Positions 24,507-52,040 of a stretch of DNA of 64,000 bases are shown here, in pieces. Both the position numbers and the translations under genes were made by a program. The notes beneath the pieces were generated by a model. That model saw only the letters and a program-made list of their open reading frames with translations. It had not been told where the DNA came from and did not search any database. Within the stretch, counting starts at the first letter, position 1. Every line of letters begins with the position of its first letter. Source of the DNA: Hyphomicrobiales bacterium (GTDB lineage Bacteria; Pseudomonadota; Alphaproteobacteria; Rhizobiales; Beijerinckiaceae); the NCBI GenBank assembly GCA_027483895.1, contig JAIXTP010000037.1, positions 40,620 through 104,619 on the forward strand. Reading direction: 5' to 3'.

Positions 24507-24794
24507 CTCACCCCTCCTGCCGCGAATGCGGCCGAATTTTCTTGCGGCGACGACGCAAGCGGCGTGCCGGCGGTTCGTTCCCGATTCCCTTGAAAGACGT
24601 CCGATCACGGGTGCCGATCTGCACCAATTCGGATCTTGTTGCCGGTATTTTGAGCATGACCCGTGCTCGCCCGCCAGTGGGCTTGAAACACGAAAAAGCC
24701 GCATTACCTCCCGTGCTGCGGCACCGGGCCCCTCTGGCGAAAGTCCGACCCTTTCGTGATGTCGGCGCCGCGATCTGAAACAGAGGGATGGATC

Positions 24795-25784
24795 ATGCCC
24801 GAATTCCTGATGATGGACCTCATCGGAAAGCCGCTCTGGATGTGGGCGGCCTTCTTGGGGGTCGTTCTCGTACTTCTCGCCTTCGATCTCGGCGTCCTGC
24901 ATCGCGGATCCAAGGAGATCGGCGTGGCCGAGAGCCTGATGCTCTCGGCGTTCTACATCGCCATGGGCCTGAGCTTCGGCGCCTGGGTCTGGTGGTCGAT
25001 CGGCCCGCAGCAGGGCCTCGAATATCTGACCGGCTTCGTCATCGAGAAATCGCTCTCGATGGACAACATCTTCGTCATCGCGATGATCTTCGGCTATTTC
25101 GGGATCCCGCGGGCCTATCAGTACCGCGTGCTGTTCTGGGGCATCCTCGCGGTCATCGTGCTGCGCGGCCTCATGATCGGCGTCGGCGCGGCGCTGGTGC
25201 AGCAGTTCTCCTGGGTGCTGTACCTCTTCGCGGCCTTCCTCGTGATCACCGGCGTGAAGATGATCGTCGCGGCCGATCAGCAGTACGACGTGGCCTCGAA
25301 CCCCATCCTCAAGCTCATCCGCAAGCACATGCGGGTGACGGACGAGCTGCGGGGCGAGCGCTTCATGGTGAAGGAGCACGATCCGAAGACCGGCAAGCTC
25401 GTGACCGCGGTCACCCCGCTCTTCCTCGTGCTCGTGCTCGTGAACGTCGCGGACGTGATCTTCGCGGTGGACTCGGTGCCGGCGATCTTCGCCATCACCA
25501 CGGATACCTACATCGTGTTCACGTCCAACATCTTCGCGATCCTCGGCCTGCGGGCGCTCTATTTCGCGCTCGCGGCGATGATCGACCGGTTCGCCTATCT
25601 GAAATACGCGCTGGCGGCCGTGCTGATCTTCATCGGCTCGAAGATCGTCGTCGCCGACATGCTGGGCATCGCCAAGGTCCCGCCGTCCATCTCGCTGGGC
25701 GTCACCTTCGCGATCCTCGCGGCGGGCATCTTCTGGTCGCTCTGGAAGACCCGCGGCACCGACAAGGCCGCCACCACGGCCTGA
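24795..25784 (+). CDS. TerC-family integral membrane protein
   Basis: This 329-residue protein has about nine hydrophobic segments and the two TerC metal-site motifs, SLSMDNIFV (about residue 80) and NVADVIFAVDSVPA (about residue 215), with conserved acidic residues inside the membrane. TerC/Alx proteins export metals, notably manganese, and load exoenzymes with metal; tellurite resistance is a side effect. The ATG at 24795 is favoured by GGGATGG a few bases upstream. I found no yybP-ykoY manganese riboswitch consensus in the 288 bp upstream. A strong bidirectional terminator follows. Confidence 0.9.
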   Translation: MPEFLMMDLIGKPLWMWAAFLGVVLVLLAFDLGVLHRGSKEIGVAESLMLSAFYIAMGLSFGAWVWWSIGPQQGLEYLTGFVIEKSLSMDNIFVIAMIFGYFGIPRAYQYRVLFWGILAVIVLRGLMIGVGAALVQQFSWVLYLFAAFLVITGVKMIVAADQQYDVASNPILKLIRKHMRVTDELRGERFMVKEHDPKTGKLVTAVTPLFLVLVLVNVADVIFAVDSVPAIFAITTDTYIVFTSNIFAILGLRALYFALAAMIDRFAYLKYALAAVLIFIGSKIVVADMLGIAKVPPSISLGVTFAILAAGIFWSLWKTRGTDKAATTA

Positions 25785-47828: not shown

Positions 47829-47905
47829 GGTCCCGTAGCTCAGCAGGATAGAGCATCAGTTTCCTAAACTGAGGGTCACAGGTTCGAATCCTGTCGGGAT
47901 CGCCA
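47829..47905 (+). tRNA. tRNA-Arg (anticodon CCU)
   Basis: A full cloverleaf is present: acceptor GGTCCCG pairs with CGGGATC (one G-U pair), D-stem GCTC/GAGC, anticodon stem TCAGT/ACTGA with loop TTCCTAA (anticodon CCT at 47863-47865), variable loop GGGTC, and T-stem ACAGG/CCTGT with loop TTCGAAT. A genomically encoded CCA follows the discriminator G. It reads AGG arginine codons, rare in this GC-rich genome. Confidence 0.96.
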
Positions 47906-48204: not shown

Positions 48205-49362
48205 ATGTCTTCTCTGTCGACGGTTCTGTGCATCGTCGGGACGAGGCCCGAATGCATCAAGATGGCGCCGGTGATCCGGGCGCTTCGGGCGCGCGGGCGA
48301 TGCCGCGTTCTCGTCGTCAGTACCGGGCAGCATCGTGACCTCGTCGCCCAGGAACTCCGCGAATTCGGCCTCGTCGTGGATTTCGATCTCGACGTGATGC
48401 GCGAGAACCAGGCCCTGTCGGGCCTGACCGCACGCATTTTCGAATCCCTCGATCCGCTTCTCGTGGAAACCGCACCCGATCTGGTCCTCGTGCAGGGCGA
48501 TACCACGTCCGTCATGGCCGCCGCGCTCTGCGCCTTCCATCGCCGCATCCCGGTCGGCCATGTCGAGGCGGGGCTGCGGACCGACGACGTCGCCAGTCCC
48601 TTCCCCGAGGAGATGAACCGTCGCGTCACCACGGTCGCGGCGCGGCTCCATTTCGCCCCTACGGCCGGCGCTCGGGATGCATTGCTGCGCGAAGGCGTCG
48701 CGGCCGATCGCGTCTTCCTGACGGGCAACACCGTCATCGATGCCCTCACGGCGAGGGCGGAAGCCGTCGAACCGGCCCCGACCGCGCGGCCGCGCCGCAT
48801 TCTGCTCACCGCCCATCGGCGGGAAAATCACGGCGCGCCGATCCGGCGCATCTGCAGCGCGGTGCGCCGCCTGATCGAACGTTTTCCGGATCTGGAGATC
48901 GTCTATCCGGTCCACCCCAATCCCAATATCTCGCGGCCCGTGACCGAGCTGCTGTCGGGCATCGAGCGGGTCGTCCTGCGGCCGCCGCTCGGTTACGGCG
49001 ACCTGATCGCCGAGATGAAGAGCGCGCAATTGGTGCTGACCGACAGCGGCGGGATTCAGGAAGAGGCGCCGGCTCTCGGCCGGCCGGTCCTCGTGCTGCG
49101 CGAGGAGACCGAGCGGCCCGAAGCGGTGGCCGCGGGCGCGGCGATCCTCGTCGGGACCGACGAGGACCGGATCGTCGCGGAGGCGACGCGGCTCCTGCTC
49201 GAAGCGGATGCGCGGGCCGCGATGACGGGGGCCGGCTCGCCCTATGGCGACGGGCGCGCGGCCGAGCGGATCGCGGAAATCTGCTGTGCTCATCTCGAAG
49301 GCCGGGCGCCGGTCGTCGACGAATTCGCCTTCGGCGGGAGTGCGCGTCATGTCGCGGCGTGA
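48205..49362 (+). CDS. wecB: UDP-N-acetylglucosamine 2-epimerase (non-hydrolysing)
   Basis: This 385-residue enzyme interconverts UDP-GlcNAc and UDP-ManNAc, providing ManNAc-type precursors for surface glycans. Diagnostic motifs are present: GTRPE (residues 12-16), VQGDTTS, HVEAGLRT, FPEEMNR, TAHRREN and DSGGIQEE. The ATG at 48205 begins the homologous region. Its 3' end overlaps the next gene by 14 bases, so the three genes 48205-52040 are one unit. A wecB homologue is needed with NfrA and NfrB to make the phage N4 glycan receptor in E. coli, which guides the reading of this cluster. Confidence 0.93.
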   Translation: MSSLSTVLCIVGTRPECIKMAPVIRALRARGRCRVLVVSTGQHRDLVAQELREFGLVVDFDLDVMRENQALSGLTARIFESLDPLLVETAPDLVLVQGDTTSVMAAALCAFHRRIPVGHVEAGLRTDDVASPFPEEMNRRVTTVAARLHFAPTAGARDALLREGVAADRVFLTGNTVIDALTARAEAVEPAPTARPRRILLTAHRRENHGAPIRRICSAVRRLIERFPDLEIVYPVHPNPNISRPVTELLSGIERVVLRPPLGYGDLIAEMKSAQLVLTDSGGIQEEAPALGRPVLVLREETERPEAVAAGAAILVGTDEDRIVAEATRLLLEADARAAMTGAGSPYGDGRAAERIAEICCAHLEGRAPVVDEFAFGGSARHVAA

Positions 49363-50608
49363 GCGGCTGCTTCTCGCTCCGCTCGCCGCTCTTCTGTTGG
49401 CGGCCGGTGCCGCGGCGGCGGTCGCGGAGCCCGCCGCGCGCGATCTCGACGCCTATTACGCCCGGCGGGCGAGCGATCCGGCCGGGGCTCTCCGGCTGAT
49501 CACGGCGGCGGCCGACCGCAATCCGAAGAATCTGCGCGTCCAGATGGAAGCGGCCTATGCGCTGCTGGCGGCGAAGGATCCTCGCGCGCTCGCGGTGCTG
49601 GAACGCGCGGCAGCGCTGGCCCCGGGCCGTACGGATCTGCAGAAACAGCTCGGCTATGCCCGTCTCGCCGCGGGCGACGCCGCAGGGGCGCGGACCGCCT
49701 TCCGCGCGGCCCTCGCCCTCGATCCGTCGGATCAGGATCTGCGGATGCAGGTCGTCTATGTCGAGGACTCTCTCGGGATGAAGCGGTCCGCGGCGGCCGA
49801 AGCGGCCGTCGTCGCCCGGACGGGGTCGCCGCGCGCCGCCGATGCCTGCGCGGCCTACAAAGTTCTCGCGGGCGCCCCGGACCGCCTTTTCCCGACGCCG
49901 TGGTTCGGGGATTTCTATGCGGCGCCGGAATATCGAAGCCGCGACCGGGTGGCGATCGCGACGGGCCGGCTCCGGGCGGGCCGCAGCTTCATGGACGGCG
50001 CGGTCGAAGCCTACGGCACGCTGCGCGTCACGCGCGACAGCCGGTCCGACGGCGGCGGGCCGCTCGGGCCGACGATCTTCTACGACAACGCGGCCGTTCT
50101 CGGCTTCGGCCTGCAGGCGCGACCCTCCGCGACGTGGCCCCTGTCCTTCTTCGCCGAACAGGGCGCAGCGGCGGACCTGATCGATCGGTCCCGCGCCACG
50201 TGGCGCAACGATACGCGCGCCGGCGCGGTGCTGAGCTGGTCATGGATCGCCCGGACGGCATGCCCGAGCACCGTGACTGTTACCGCGACGCCGATCTTCG
50301 ACGTCTATGCCGATGCGGTCTGGTATTCGCGTCATGACGATCTCATCGCCTATGCGCGGATGCGGCCGGGCCTGCGGCTCGTCGAGGCACCGGCCTTCGC
50401 CCTCGACGCCTACGGCCTCGTCGGCGGTTCGGCCGATACGGCCGACCGGGCGGGCGAACGCTCGACGGATTTCGGCGCGGGCGCGGCCCTCACCCTTTTC
50501 GGTCCGTTGCGCACCACGCTGCGTGCGGAGCTCGCCCGCACCTCGTCCGGGACGCGGCCGACGGCGACGGACGCCCGTCTCCGGATCGAACAGCAATGGC
50601 GCTTCTGA
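49349..50608 (+). CDS. NfrA-like outer-membrane export protein (short form)
   Basis: This 419-residue protein has a signal peptide (about residues 1-27, ending AVAE), a TPR-like helical region (about 30-160; e.g. NPKNLRVQMEAAYALLAAKDP and TDLQKQLGYARLAAGDAAGARTAFRAAL) and a C-terminal half (about 185-419) of alternating beta-strand character, FGDFYAAPEYRSRDRVAIATGRLRAG to ARLRIEQQWRF, ending in an aromatic residue as outer-membrane barrels do. The C-terminal part resembles the NfrA_C domain of the E. coli phage N4 receptor NfrA (about 990 residues), but this protein is less than half as long. It overlaps wecB by 14 bases and precedes the glycosyltransferase by seven. It probably exports the polymer. 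Confidence 0.7.
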   Translation: MSRRERLLLAPLAALLLAAGAAAAVAEPAARDLDAYYARRASDPAGALRLITAAADRNPKNLRVQMEAAYALLAAKDPRALAVLERAAALAPGRTDLQKQLGYARLAAGDAAGARTAFRAALALDPSDQDLRMQVVYVEDSLGMKRSAAAEAAVVARTGSPRAADACAAYKVLAGAPDRLFPTPWFGDFYAAPEYRSRDRVAIATGRLRAGRSFMDGAVEAYGTLRVTRDSRSDGGGPLGPTIFYDNAAVLGFGLQARPSATWPLSFFAEQGAAADLIDRSRATWRNDTRAGAVLSWSWIARTACPSTVTVTATPIFDVYADAVWYSRHDDLIAYARMRPGLRLVEAPAFALDAYGLVGGSADTADRAGERSTDFGAGAALTLFGPLRTTLRAELARTSSGTRPTATDARLRIEQQWRF

Positions 50609-50615
50609 GGGGCCG

Positions 50616-52040
50616 ATGCTGATCGAGACCTACACGACGTTCCTCCACTCCGCGGCCTGGATCCTCGCCGCGGCCTATCTGATCAGCGGGCTCGACGAGC
50701 TGTTGATGACCTGCGCCTTTCTGGTCTGGCAGGGCTTCCGGCGCTTCGTCCTGCTGCCGGGCAACGAGCGTCTCAACATCCGAATGCTTAAGGCGAAGGC
50801 CGAGCAGCGCGCCGCGATCATGGTGCCGGCCTGGCAGGAGGCGGCCGTGATCGGCCGGATGGTGCGCTTCGCGATCGCCGAGATCGACTATGCCGACTAC
50901 ATGATCTTCGTCGGCGTCTATCCGAACGATCCGGACACGATCGCCGCGGTCGAAAGCGTCCGGGCCGAGTTTCCGGATCATGTGCGGATCGCGGTGGTTC
51001 CGAACCCCGGCCCGACCACCAAATCCGATTGTCTGAACGCCATTCTGCGGGCCGCCAGGGATTGGGGGCGCGAGACGAGGCGCGAGGTCGATTTCTACGT
51101 GCTCCACGACGCGGAAGATTATGTTCCGCGCTACGGGCTCCGGCTGTTCAATTTCCTGATACCCCGGAAGGCGATCGTCCAGATCCCCGTATTCCCCTTG
51201 CCGGCGCCCTGGTGGGCGCTGACCGAGGGGCACTACATGGATGAATTCGCGCAGCTTCACCTGAAGGATCTTCGGGTGCGGGAATGGCTGACGGGCGGGG
51301 TGCCCAGCGCCGGCGTCGGCACCGCCTTCAGCCGCGAGGCCATCGCGATGGCGTGGGAAGAGAAGCTCGACGGCGCCTTCCGGCCGCATCTGCTGACCGA
51401 GGACTACGAGATCTCGATGCAGTTGCTCCGCCGCGGCGCGGAGTCGGCGTTCTTCATCGGCGATCTTCGCGATGCGGAACCGGGTCCGCCGGAGTTCCGC
51501 CTTCATGCGCTGCCGGGCCTCCCGGCCGTCAGGGGCGAATTCCCGCGAACCTTCTGGGCGTCCGTCCGCCAGAAGACGCGCTGGACGCTCGGCATCACGC
51601 TGCAGGGTTGGGAAAGCCTCGGCTGGTACGGCGATTTCTGGCAGCGCTACATCCTGTTCAGGGATCGCAAGCCGCTCGTCACCAATCTGCTGAACGTGGT
51701 CGCCTATTCGATCCTCGCGATCTGGCTGGTGCCGCGAGCGATCGCCGCTTGGCTCTTTCCGGATGCGCCGTTTCCGGCGCCGTTGCCGCAGGACCCGCTG
51801 CTTTACGCGCTGGTCGAGGCCAATTTCGTGCTGCTGTCGGTCTTTCTCTGCGTCAGGTTCGCCTGCACCTACATCGCCTACGGCCCCGTCCATGCCGTGA
51901 TGTCGCTGCCGCGCGTGGTCTGGGGCAATTTCGTGAATTTCGCGGCGACCTTCCGTGCCGTCCGGCAATATGTCGCCGCACGCCGCAAAGGCATCAAGAA
52001 CATCCCGTGGGAAAAGACGGCCCACGCCACGAATCGCTGA
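50616..52040 (+). CDS. NfrB-like processive glycosyltransferase (inner membrane, short form)
   Basis: This 474-residue membrane enzyme is a family 2 glycosyltransferase of the cellulose-synthase/NfrB type. It has a first membrane segment at about residues 12-40, catalytic motifs HDAED (164-168), TED (261-263) and QKTRW (319-323, the processive QxxRW motif), and further membrane segments at about 357-382 and 396-425. E. coli NfrB (about 745 residues) carries a C-terminal c-di-GMP-binding domain; here the protein stops at the membrane segments, so that control appears to be missing. It likely polymerises ManNAc/GlcNAc-type sugar made available by the upstream epimerase. Confidence 0.82.
   Translation: MLIETYTTFLHSAAWILAAAYLISGLDELLMTCAFLVWQGFRRFVLLPGNERLNIRMLKAKAEQRAAIMVPAWQEAAVIGRMVRFAIAEIDYADYMIFVGVYPNDPDTIAAVESVRAEFPDHVRIAVVPNPGPTTKSDCLNAILRAARDWGRETRREVDFYVLHDAEDYVPRYGLRLFNFLIPRKAIVQIPVFPLPAPWWALTEGHYMDEFAQLHLKDLRVREWLTGGVPSAGVGTAFSREAIAMAWEEKLDGAFRPHLLTEDYEISMQLLRRGAESAFFIGDLRDAEPGPPEFRLHALPGLPAVRGEFPRTFWASVRQKTRWTLGITLQGWESLGWYGDFWQRYILFRDRKPLVTNLLNVVAYSILAIWLVPRAIAAWLFPDAPFPAPLPQDPLLYALVEANFVLLSVFLCVRFACTYIAYGPVHAVMSLPRVVWGNFVNFAATFRAVRQYVAARRKGIKNIPWEKTAHATNR

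Follow-up and report, generated by a model that had tools for sequence, protein, structure and literature searches.

A predicted exopolysaccharide operon of the wecB-nfrA-nfrB type in a Hyphomicrobiales bacterium, with a trimmed synthase, a repeat-poor exporter and c-di-GMP genes in its sister clusters

Known NfrB systems

The N4 glycan receptor (NGR) system of Escherichia coli consists of nfrB-nfrA-ybcH together with wecB, according to the available text of PMC8669469 and PMC8669472. NfrB is a recently recognised synthase controlled by cyclic di-GMP (c-di-GMP), and its glycan is a receptor for N4-like phages. In the 2021 paper (PMC8669469), an MshEN domain is assigned to 1,705 of 1,841 NfrBs, hence an MshEN-less minority was already visible, and linkage of nfrB to wecB and to cyclase genes is also reported there. 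The present analysis concerns a three-gene operon of this type, consisting of wecB, an nfrA-like gene and a short nfrB, in a 64,000-nucleotide stretch of DNA from a Hyphomicrobiales bacterium (Beijerinckiaceae; assembly GCA_027483895.1, contig JAIXTP010000037.1, positions 40,620 to 104,619 of the forward strand), which is called the window below. The layout as such is not new, since wecB linkage and MshEN-less NfrBs have been in print since 2021 (available text of PMC8669469). The operon is of the wecB-nfrA-nfrB type and is predicted to serve exopolysaccharide production; its synthase is trimmed and its exporter is poor in tetratricopeptide repeats (TPRs). Genes for c-di-GMP synthesis and breakdown, and less surely genes for its sensing, belong to sister clusters and accompany the NfrB clade in which the window's protein is found.

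WecB, the core of NfrB, a family 2 glycosyltransferase (GT2), and a TPR-plus-barrel exporter are common to the window operon and the E. coli NGR system, the exporters by remote homology. In contrast to E. coli, wecB is part of the window operon and ybcH is absent from it, NfrB lacks the MshEN tail that there adds 266 residues to the core, and the TPR array of the exporter is mostly gone. A short NfrB form is also represented by the NCBIfam model NF011305 (PRK14716.1-3, 486 positions), in which the glycosyltransferase core likewise stops after the membrane helices; the window NfrB scores 386 bits against its cut-off of 409. What distinguishes the window clade from the MshEN-less NfrBs of PMC8669469 and NF011305 is a c-di-GMP gene pair, located either within the operon or at another place in the genome.

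The operon and its products

All three genes are located on the forward strand and have intact frames. wecB (48205..49362; ATG at 48205, stop codon ending at 49362) encodes a non-hydrolysing UDP-GlcNAc 2-epimerase of 385 amino acids (aa), the nfrA-like gene (49349..50608; ATG at 49349, stop codon ending at 50608) a 419-aa TPR plus outer-membrane barrel protein, and the short nfrB (50616..52040; ATG at 50616, stop codon ending at 52040) a 474-aa GT2 enzyme without C-terminal domain. The frames of wecB and the nfrA-like gene overlap by 14 bp and a 7-bp gap precedes nfrB, exactly as described in an earlier reading of this DNA made from the sequence alone (the sequence-only reading), which also quoted the E. 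coli lengths correctly (745 residues for NfrB, 990 for NfrA). Its assignment of the locus to a wecB-nfrA-nfrB-type surface polysaccharide system is borne out by family models, by identity to E. coli NfrB and by a profile–profile link to NfrA.

The window WecB reaches 440 bits with the equivalog model TIGR00236 (cut-off 210) and matches the solved structure 1f6d with an E-value of 3.1e-105. It is the sole wecB detected by TIGR00236 in the window's genome (93% complete), which agrees with the proposal that the operon carries its own dedicated epimerase. According to the available text of Junkermeier and Hengge (PMC8669469), a wecB adjoins nfrB where the genome has no other copy, and the sole genomic wecB beside nfrB fits this rule. 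As judged from its family, WecB would convert UDP-GlcNAc to UDP-ManNAc (UDP-N-acetylmannosamine), and the linkage of wecB predicts a ManNAc-containing surface glycan as the product.

The window NfrB shares 38% identity with its E. coli counterpart (window residues 2-470, E. coli residues 4-475) and scores 421 bits with the NfrB model NF008411 over profile positions 2-470 of 723, a partial match that does not reach the full-length cut-off of 1170. A Pfam scan returned GT2 only. The three motifs named in the sequence-only reading were located on the forward strand as HDAED (51105..51119), TED (51396..51404) and QKTRW, a QxxRW motif (51570..51584); DAED, TED and the Q, K, R and W of the last motif are invariant in 25/25 aligned short NfrBs. 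Thus, the protein combines a GT2 core containing DxD-type, TED and QxxRW motifs with homology along the NfrB core. The predicted model (predicted local distance difference test, pLDDT, 90.4) has BcsA and PcManGT as its nearest folds, and a sequence search of the PDB with NfrB gave no match at E 0.01. Compared with BcsA, the window synthase has no PilZ tail and a different substrate is expected; in the alignments with BcsA and with the cellulose exporter BcsC, sequence identity is 13% and 9%, respectively. From its motifs and BcsA-like predicted fold, NfrB would polymerise UDP-ManNAc and move the chain through the inner membrane.

Termination of NfrB directly after its membrane segments, also claimed earlier, is confirmed by the comparison with E. 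coli NfrB, as no tail extends beyond the core, and MshEN (PF05157) was not found in this protein or anywhere in the window's genome. In a tree of 201 glycosyltransferase cores (quick method, midpoint-rooted, with long-branch warnings), the short state requires 13 changes, at least eight of which are forced by well supported branches. The window NfrB is placed in an all-short clade of 58 rows (support 98) and, within it, in a clade of 29 rows (support 100). Since the entire 58-row clade is short, neither a truncated gene nor a sequencing error is accepted as the reason for the length of the window NfrB.

The 419-aa protein is, as judged from sequence comparison, remotely related to NfrA, and its TPR array is trimmed. 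Pfam gives weak TPR matches only, and NfrA_C is not matched up to E 1, compared with 227.6 bits for E. coli NfrA; the relationship is visible in profile–profile comparison alone. When two sets sharing no sequence were compared, the barrel region matched that of NfrA with 95.2% probability (E 2.5e-8, 180 columns). The match became stronger once the TPR part was included (99.2%, E 5.8e-20), and the reversed NfrA profile, used as control, gave a probability of 0.3%. An earlier run (E 1.2e-57) was discarded because the NfrA set had absorbed NfrA-like relatives through iteration. When the NfrA-like alignment was used for a profile search, unrelated TPR proteins dominated the result, and five of the 97 matches were accepted as family members by score and length (P0001-P0003, P0127 and P0128).

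The predicted structure of the NfrA-like protein (pLDDT 89.4) contains a helical TPR part (49430..49867, forward strand; residues 28-173), in which nine helices are modelled and to which the weak Pfam matches belong, followed by a predicted β-barrel (49901..50605, forward strand; residues 185-419). Thirteen strands are listed for the barrel (residues 185-418), the first two being 3 residues apart, which leaves about 12. The protein thus has the arrangement of NfrA, in which TPRs precede a C-terminal outer-membrane barrel, and its predicted barrel is homologous to the NfrA one. The best Foldseek match of the model is BcsC (E 7.7e-9, TM-scores 0.32 and 0.27); VIA-align matched TPR-type chains in a comparison that covers the TPR part, and the PDB sequence search returned TPR-containing or designed chains with a best E-value of 0.001. 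By the author's own cuts, the C-terminal region comprises about 265 residues (155-419), compared with about 253 in E. coli NfrA (738-990), which indicates that the protein is short because its TPR array is mostly gone. The statement that it has less than half the length of NfrA is true for the whole protein, but the shortfall lies in the TPR array, and a shortened C-terminal region is rejected. The barrel of E. coli NfrA is described as 16-stranded, from a model, in the available text of PMC8669472; the lower predicted strand count here may correspond to a narrower pore. The barrel would let the polysaccharide through the outer membrane.

As an alternative to polymer export, NfrB could transfer ManNAc, as a single residue or a few, to a carrier or to some molecule of the envelope, the barrel having another role and no long polymer being exported. 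This non-processive function is improbable, as DxD, TED and QxxRW are named as signatures of processive glycosyltransferases in the available text of PMC8669469 and TED and QxxRW are invariant here. Furthermore, the barrel protein has BcsC as its best match, and its gene accompanies nfrB in eight of the nine loci L004-L012, the exception being L004, which is cut by a contig end. L numbers denote loci; the 80 named loci are the best 80 of 275 for a search with a short-NfrB alignment, such that counts among them are not population frequencies, and genes in the loci come from a simple caller and have approximate starts.

c-di-GMP genes in sister clusters and genomes

The sequence-only reading had taken the system to be self-contained and independent of c-di-GMP. 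The cis-acting domain is indeed absent, but sister operons as well as the window's own genome contain separate c-di-GMP genes, which leaves the proposed independence unsupported. In L007 and L008, whose NfrBs are 62% and 60% identical to the window's, the gene order is nfrA-like, nfrB, a gene for a periplasmic binding protein (Peripla_BP_6), a GGDEF gene for a diguanylate cyclase and wecB. The L010 cluster (NfrB 57% identical) reads Peripla_BP_6, GGDEF, PilZ-like, nfrA-like, nfrB, EAL and wecB. A separate c-di-GMP receptor in homologous operons had been named as contrary to independence by the sequence-only reading itself, and the candidate for it is this PilZ-like gene, which scores 18.8 bits and lies below the Pfam cut-off of 22.5. 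In L009, a PilZ-family gene and the nfrA-like gene are divergently oriented, and nfrB is followed by a binding-protein gene that is cut by the contig end.

In the window's genome, contig C24 carries a Peripla_BP_6 gene (391 bits to that of L008) and, next after it, a gene of the GGDEF-EAL type (211 bits to the cyclase of L008), i.e. an adjacent pair of a binding protein and a membrane c-di-GMP enzyme resembling NspS-MbaA. A PilZ protein encoded at C36:111540-111881 scores 23.7 bits against the Pfam cut-off of 22.5 and is homologous to the L010 protein (54 bits). It contains both RxxxR and DxSxxG, which we take to be the c-di-GMP-binding signature, in addition to the PilZ domain. All three genes are unlinked to the operon.

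Related arrangements are known. NspS-MbaA of Vibrio cholerae and Sinorhizobium meliloti likewise combines a periplasmic binding protein with a membrane c-di-GMP enzyme and affects biofilm or exopolysaccharide, as far as the available sources describe it; here, in contrast, the binding protein is of the Peripla_BP_6 type and the gene pair adjoins the NfrB operon in sister genomes. BgsA, the mixed-linkage glucan synthase of S. meliloti, is a GT2 synthase without recognised c-di-GMP domain that is nevertheless activated by c-di-GMP. It is reported, in the available text, to bind c-di-GMP in its own protein, whereas the short NfrB has no residues past the core for such a tail.

The window's binding protein and PilZ protein were searched in 60 relatives (the window's genome included) and in the ten genomes behind L004-L012 and L083. 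The genomes searched include eight of the 29-row NfrB clade, the window's and seven others, G013 and G062 being one genome. The binding-protein gene is present in 8/8 of these genomes and a PilZ-family gene in 7/8 (missing in G061), the PilZ matches of G060 and G062 being weak. Among the 58 other relatives without this NfrB, three have the binding protein (G001, G002 and G052) and two the PilZ family (G001 and G002). Fisher's test gives p-values of 2.9e-8 for the binding protein and 3.6e-7 for the PilZ family, which overstate the evidence because the genomes are not independent. When the window's genus is left out, the counts are 7/7 versus 1/56 for the binding protein and 6/7 versus 0/56 for the PilZ family. 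Binding-protein matches were accepted at 1e-60 in the 60 relatives and at 1e-30 in the clade genomes; at 1e-60, the contig-cut copy of G065 (3.3e-59) drops out and the count becomes 7/8. The binding-protein gene adjoins a homologous cyclase gene in the clade genomes, except in G065, where the contig ends, and no cyclase neighbour was detected beside the binding-protein gene of G052.

A tree of one marker gene from 22 genomes, with weak deep forks and without G061 and G063 (no match), places the binding-protein carriers in three separate lineages (three changes; united as one group in 0% of 200 bootstraps). Common descent alone is therefore a poor explanation of the co-occurrence.

The explanation we lean towards is a ManNAc-type polysaccharide synthase and exporter for which separate proteins supply c-di-GMP control. 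The periplasmic binding protein and the membrane GGDEF or GGDEF-EAL enzyme would set the local c-di-GMP level and so replace the built-in MshEN switch, and the small PilZ protein would read c-di-GMP and act on the synthase through a putative PilZ–NfrB contact; gene linkage in sister clusters and co-occurrence suggest these steps. It is conceivable, at somewhat less than even chances, that NfrB has, in one clade of alphaproteobacteria, given up its built-in MshEN switch and relies instead on a PilZ adaptor encoded separately, with a dedicated sensor pair of binding protein and GGDEF enzyme feeding it, which would wire the glycan machine to an external chemical signal. Such an arrangement of NfrB and PilZ was not found described in the limited collection of literature searched, as far as its available text goes.

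Several observations speak for the proposal of the sequence-only reading, a minimal system that needs no c-di-GMP; it would then be controlled solely by transcription and UDP-ManNAc supply. In addition to the absence of MshEN from NfrB and genome, no c-di-GMP gene is found beside the window operon or among the called neighbours of L004, L005 and L006. Two further observations also weigh against control by separate proteins: G001 and G002, which belong to the window's genus, keep the c-di-GMP pair without NfrB, implying that the pair has other work, and the three more distant sphingomonad-side genomes with short NfrB (L011, L012 and L083) lack both the binding protein and PilZ. A c-di-GMP-free system is nevertheless rather unlikely, given the GGDEF, EAL and PilZ-like genes in sister operons and the strong co-occurrence of the pair with the NfrB clade across three host lineages.

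With the switch gone from the enzyme while c-di-GMP genes stay, the clade offers a natural experiment on the gating of polysaccharide synthases and points to a candidate sensor for the glycan, and the compact set of synthase, pore and epimerase is suited to reconstitution.

The marker genes of L008 (genome G064) and L010 (genome G066) are nearly identical (branches 0.015 and 0.019), but the two clusters are differently ordered and their NfrBs share 60% and 57% identity with that of the window, which points either to replacement of a cluster or to mixed bins. In L005 (L005:5885-6211) and L004 (L004:2775-3227), the gene after nfrB encodes a cupin domain.

Genomic setting

A tRNA-Arg (CCT) gene (47829..47905, forward strand) lies 299 bp before wecB. 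This tRNA and an M48-like gene are shared with G001 and G002, in which different genes come after the tRNA, and the spot looks variable among the three genomes of this genus. At E 1e-30, NfrB is found in three of the 60 relatives, the window's own genome included, and is absent from the two of the same genus; in one of the three carriers, G005, NfrB is longer and matches MshEN right at the cut-off (23.3 versus 23.1 bits). This patchy occurrence and the variable spot speak for an operon that arrived by horizontal transfer or is decaying, and that does little in the window's genome today. This reading is very improbable, as the three intact frames are tightly coupled, the active-site motifs are kept, the nearest relatives are 90% (NfrB) and 85% (NfrA-like protein) identical and the window contains no repeated tRNA end. 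The operon does not bear the marks of an island, whether a duplicated tRNA end or reduced G+C content: the window contains a single copy of the tRNA 3' end, and the G+C content per 1 kb is 0.65-0.73 in the operon and 0.60-0.71 in the flanks scanned.

Short NfrB loci and minor observations

Among the 80 named loci, 31 encode a short NfrB, whose core is followed by fewer than 40 residues, and a wecB-like gene is located within four genes of nfrB in 52 and directly adjacent to it in 43. When the tails of ten NfrBs were scanned, three contained MshEN over the cut-off, one a weak MshEN, one HEAT repeats and five no Pfam domain. The HEAT repeats replace MshEN in the tail of an Anaerolineaceae NfrB (L033:6001-8055; HEAT_2, 58.3 bits). 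Genes with GGDEF homology occur around the NfrBs of L024, L029, L040, L056, L070 and L079, in agreement with the cyclase linkage in PMC8669469, and two NfrB genes are found within one fetched stretch in both L040 and L080. Relatives of the NfrA-like barrel (143-187 bits) are encoded near NfrBs of about 620 residues in L060, L073, L076, L078 and L080 (Legionellales, Elusimicrobia and Sulfuricurvum). Elsewhere in the window, a terC RNA element (RF03067; 52.5 bits, gathering threshold 39.9) is located at 24716-24774, just before an open reading frame starting at 24795.

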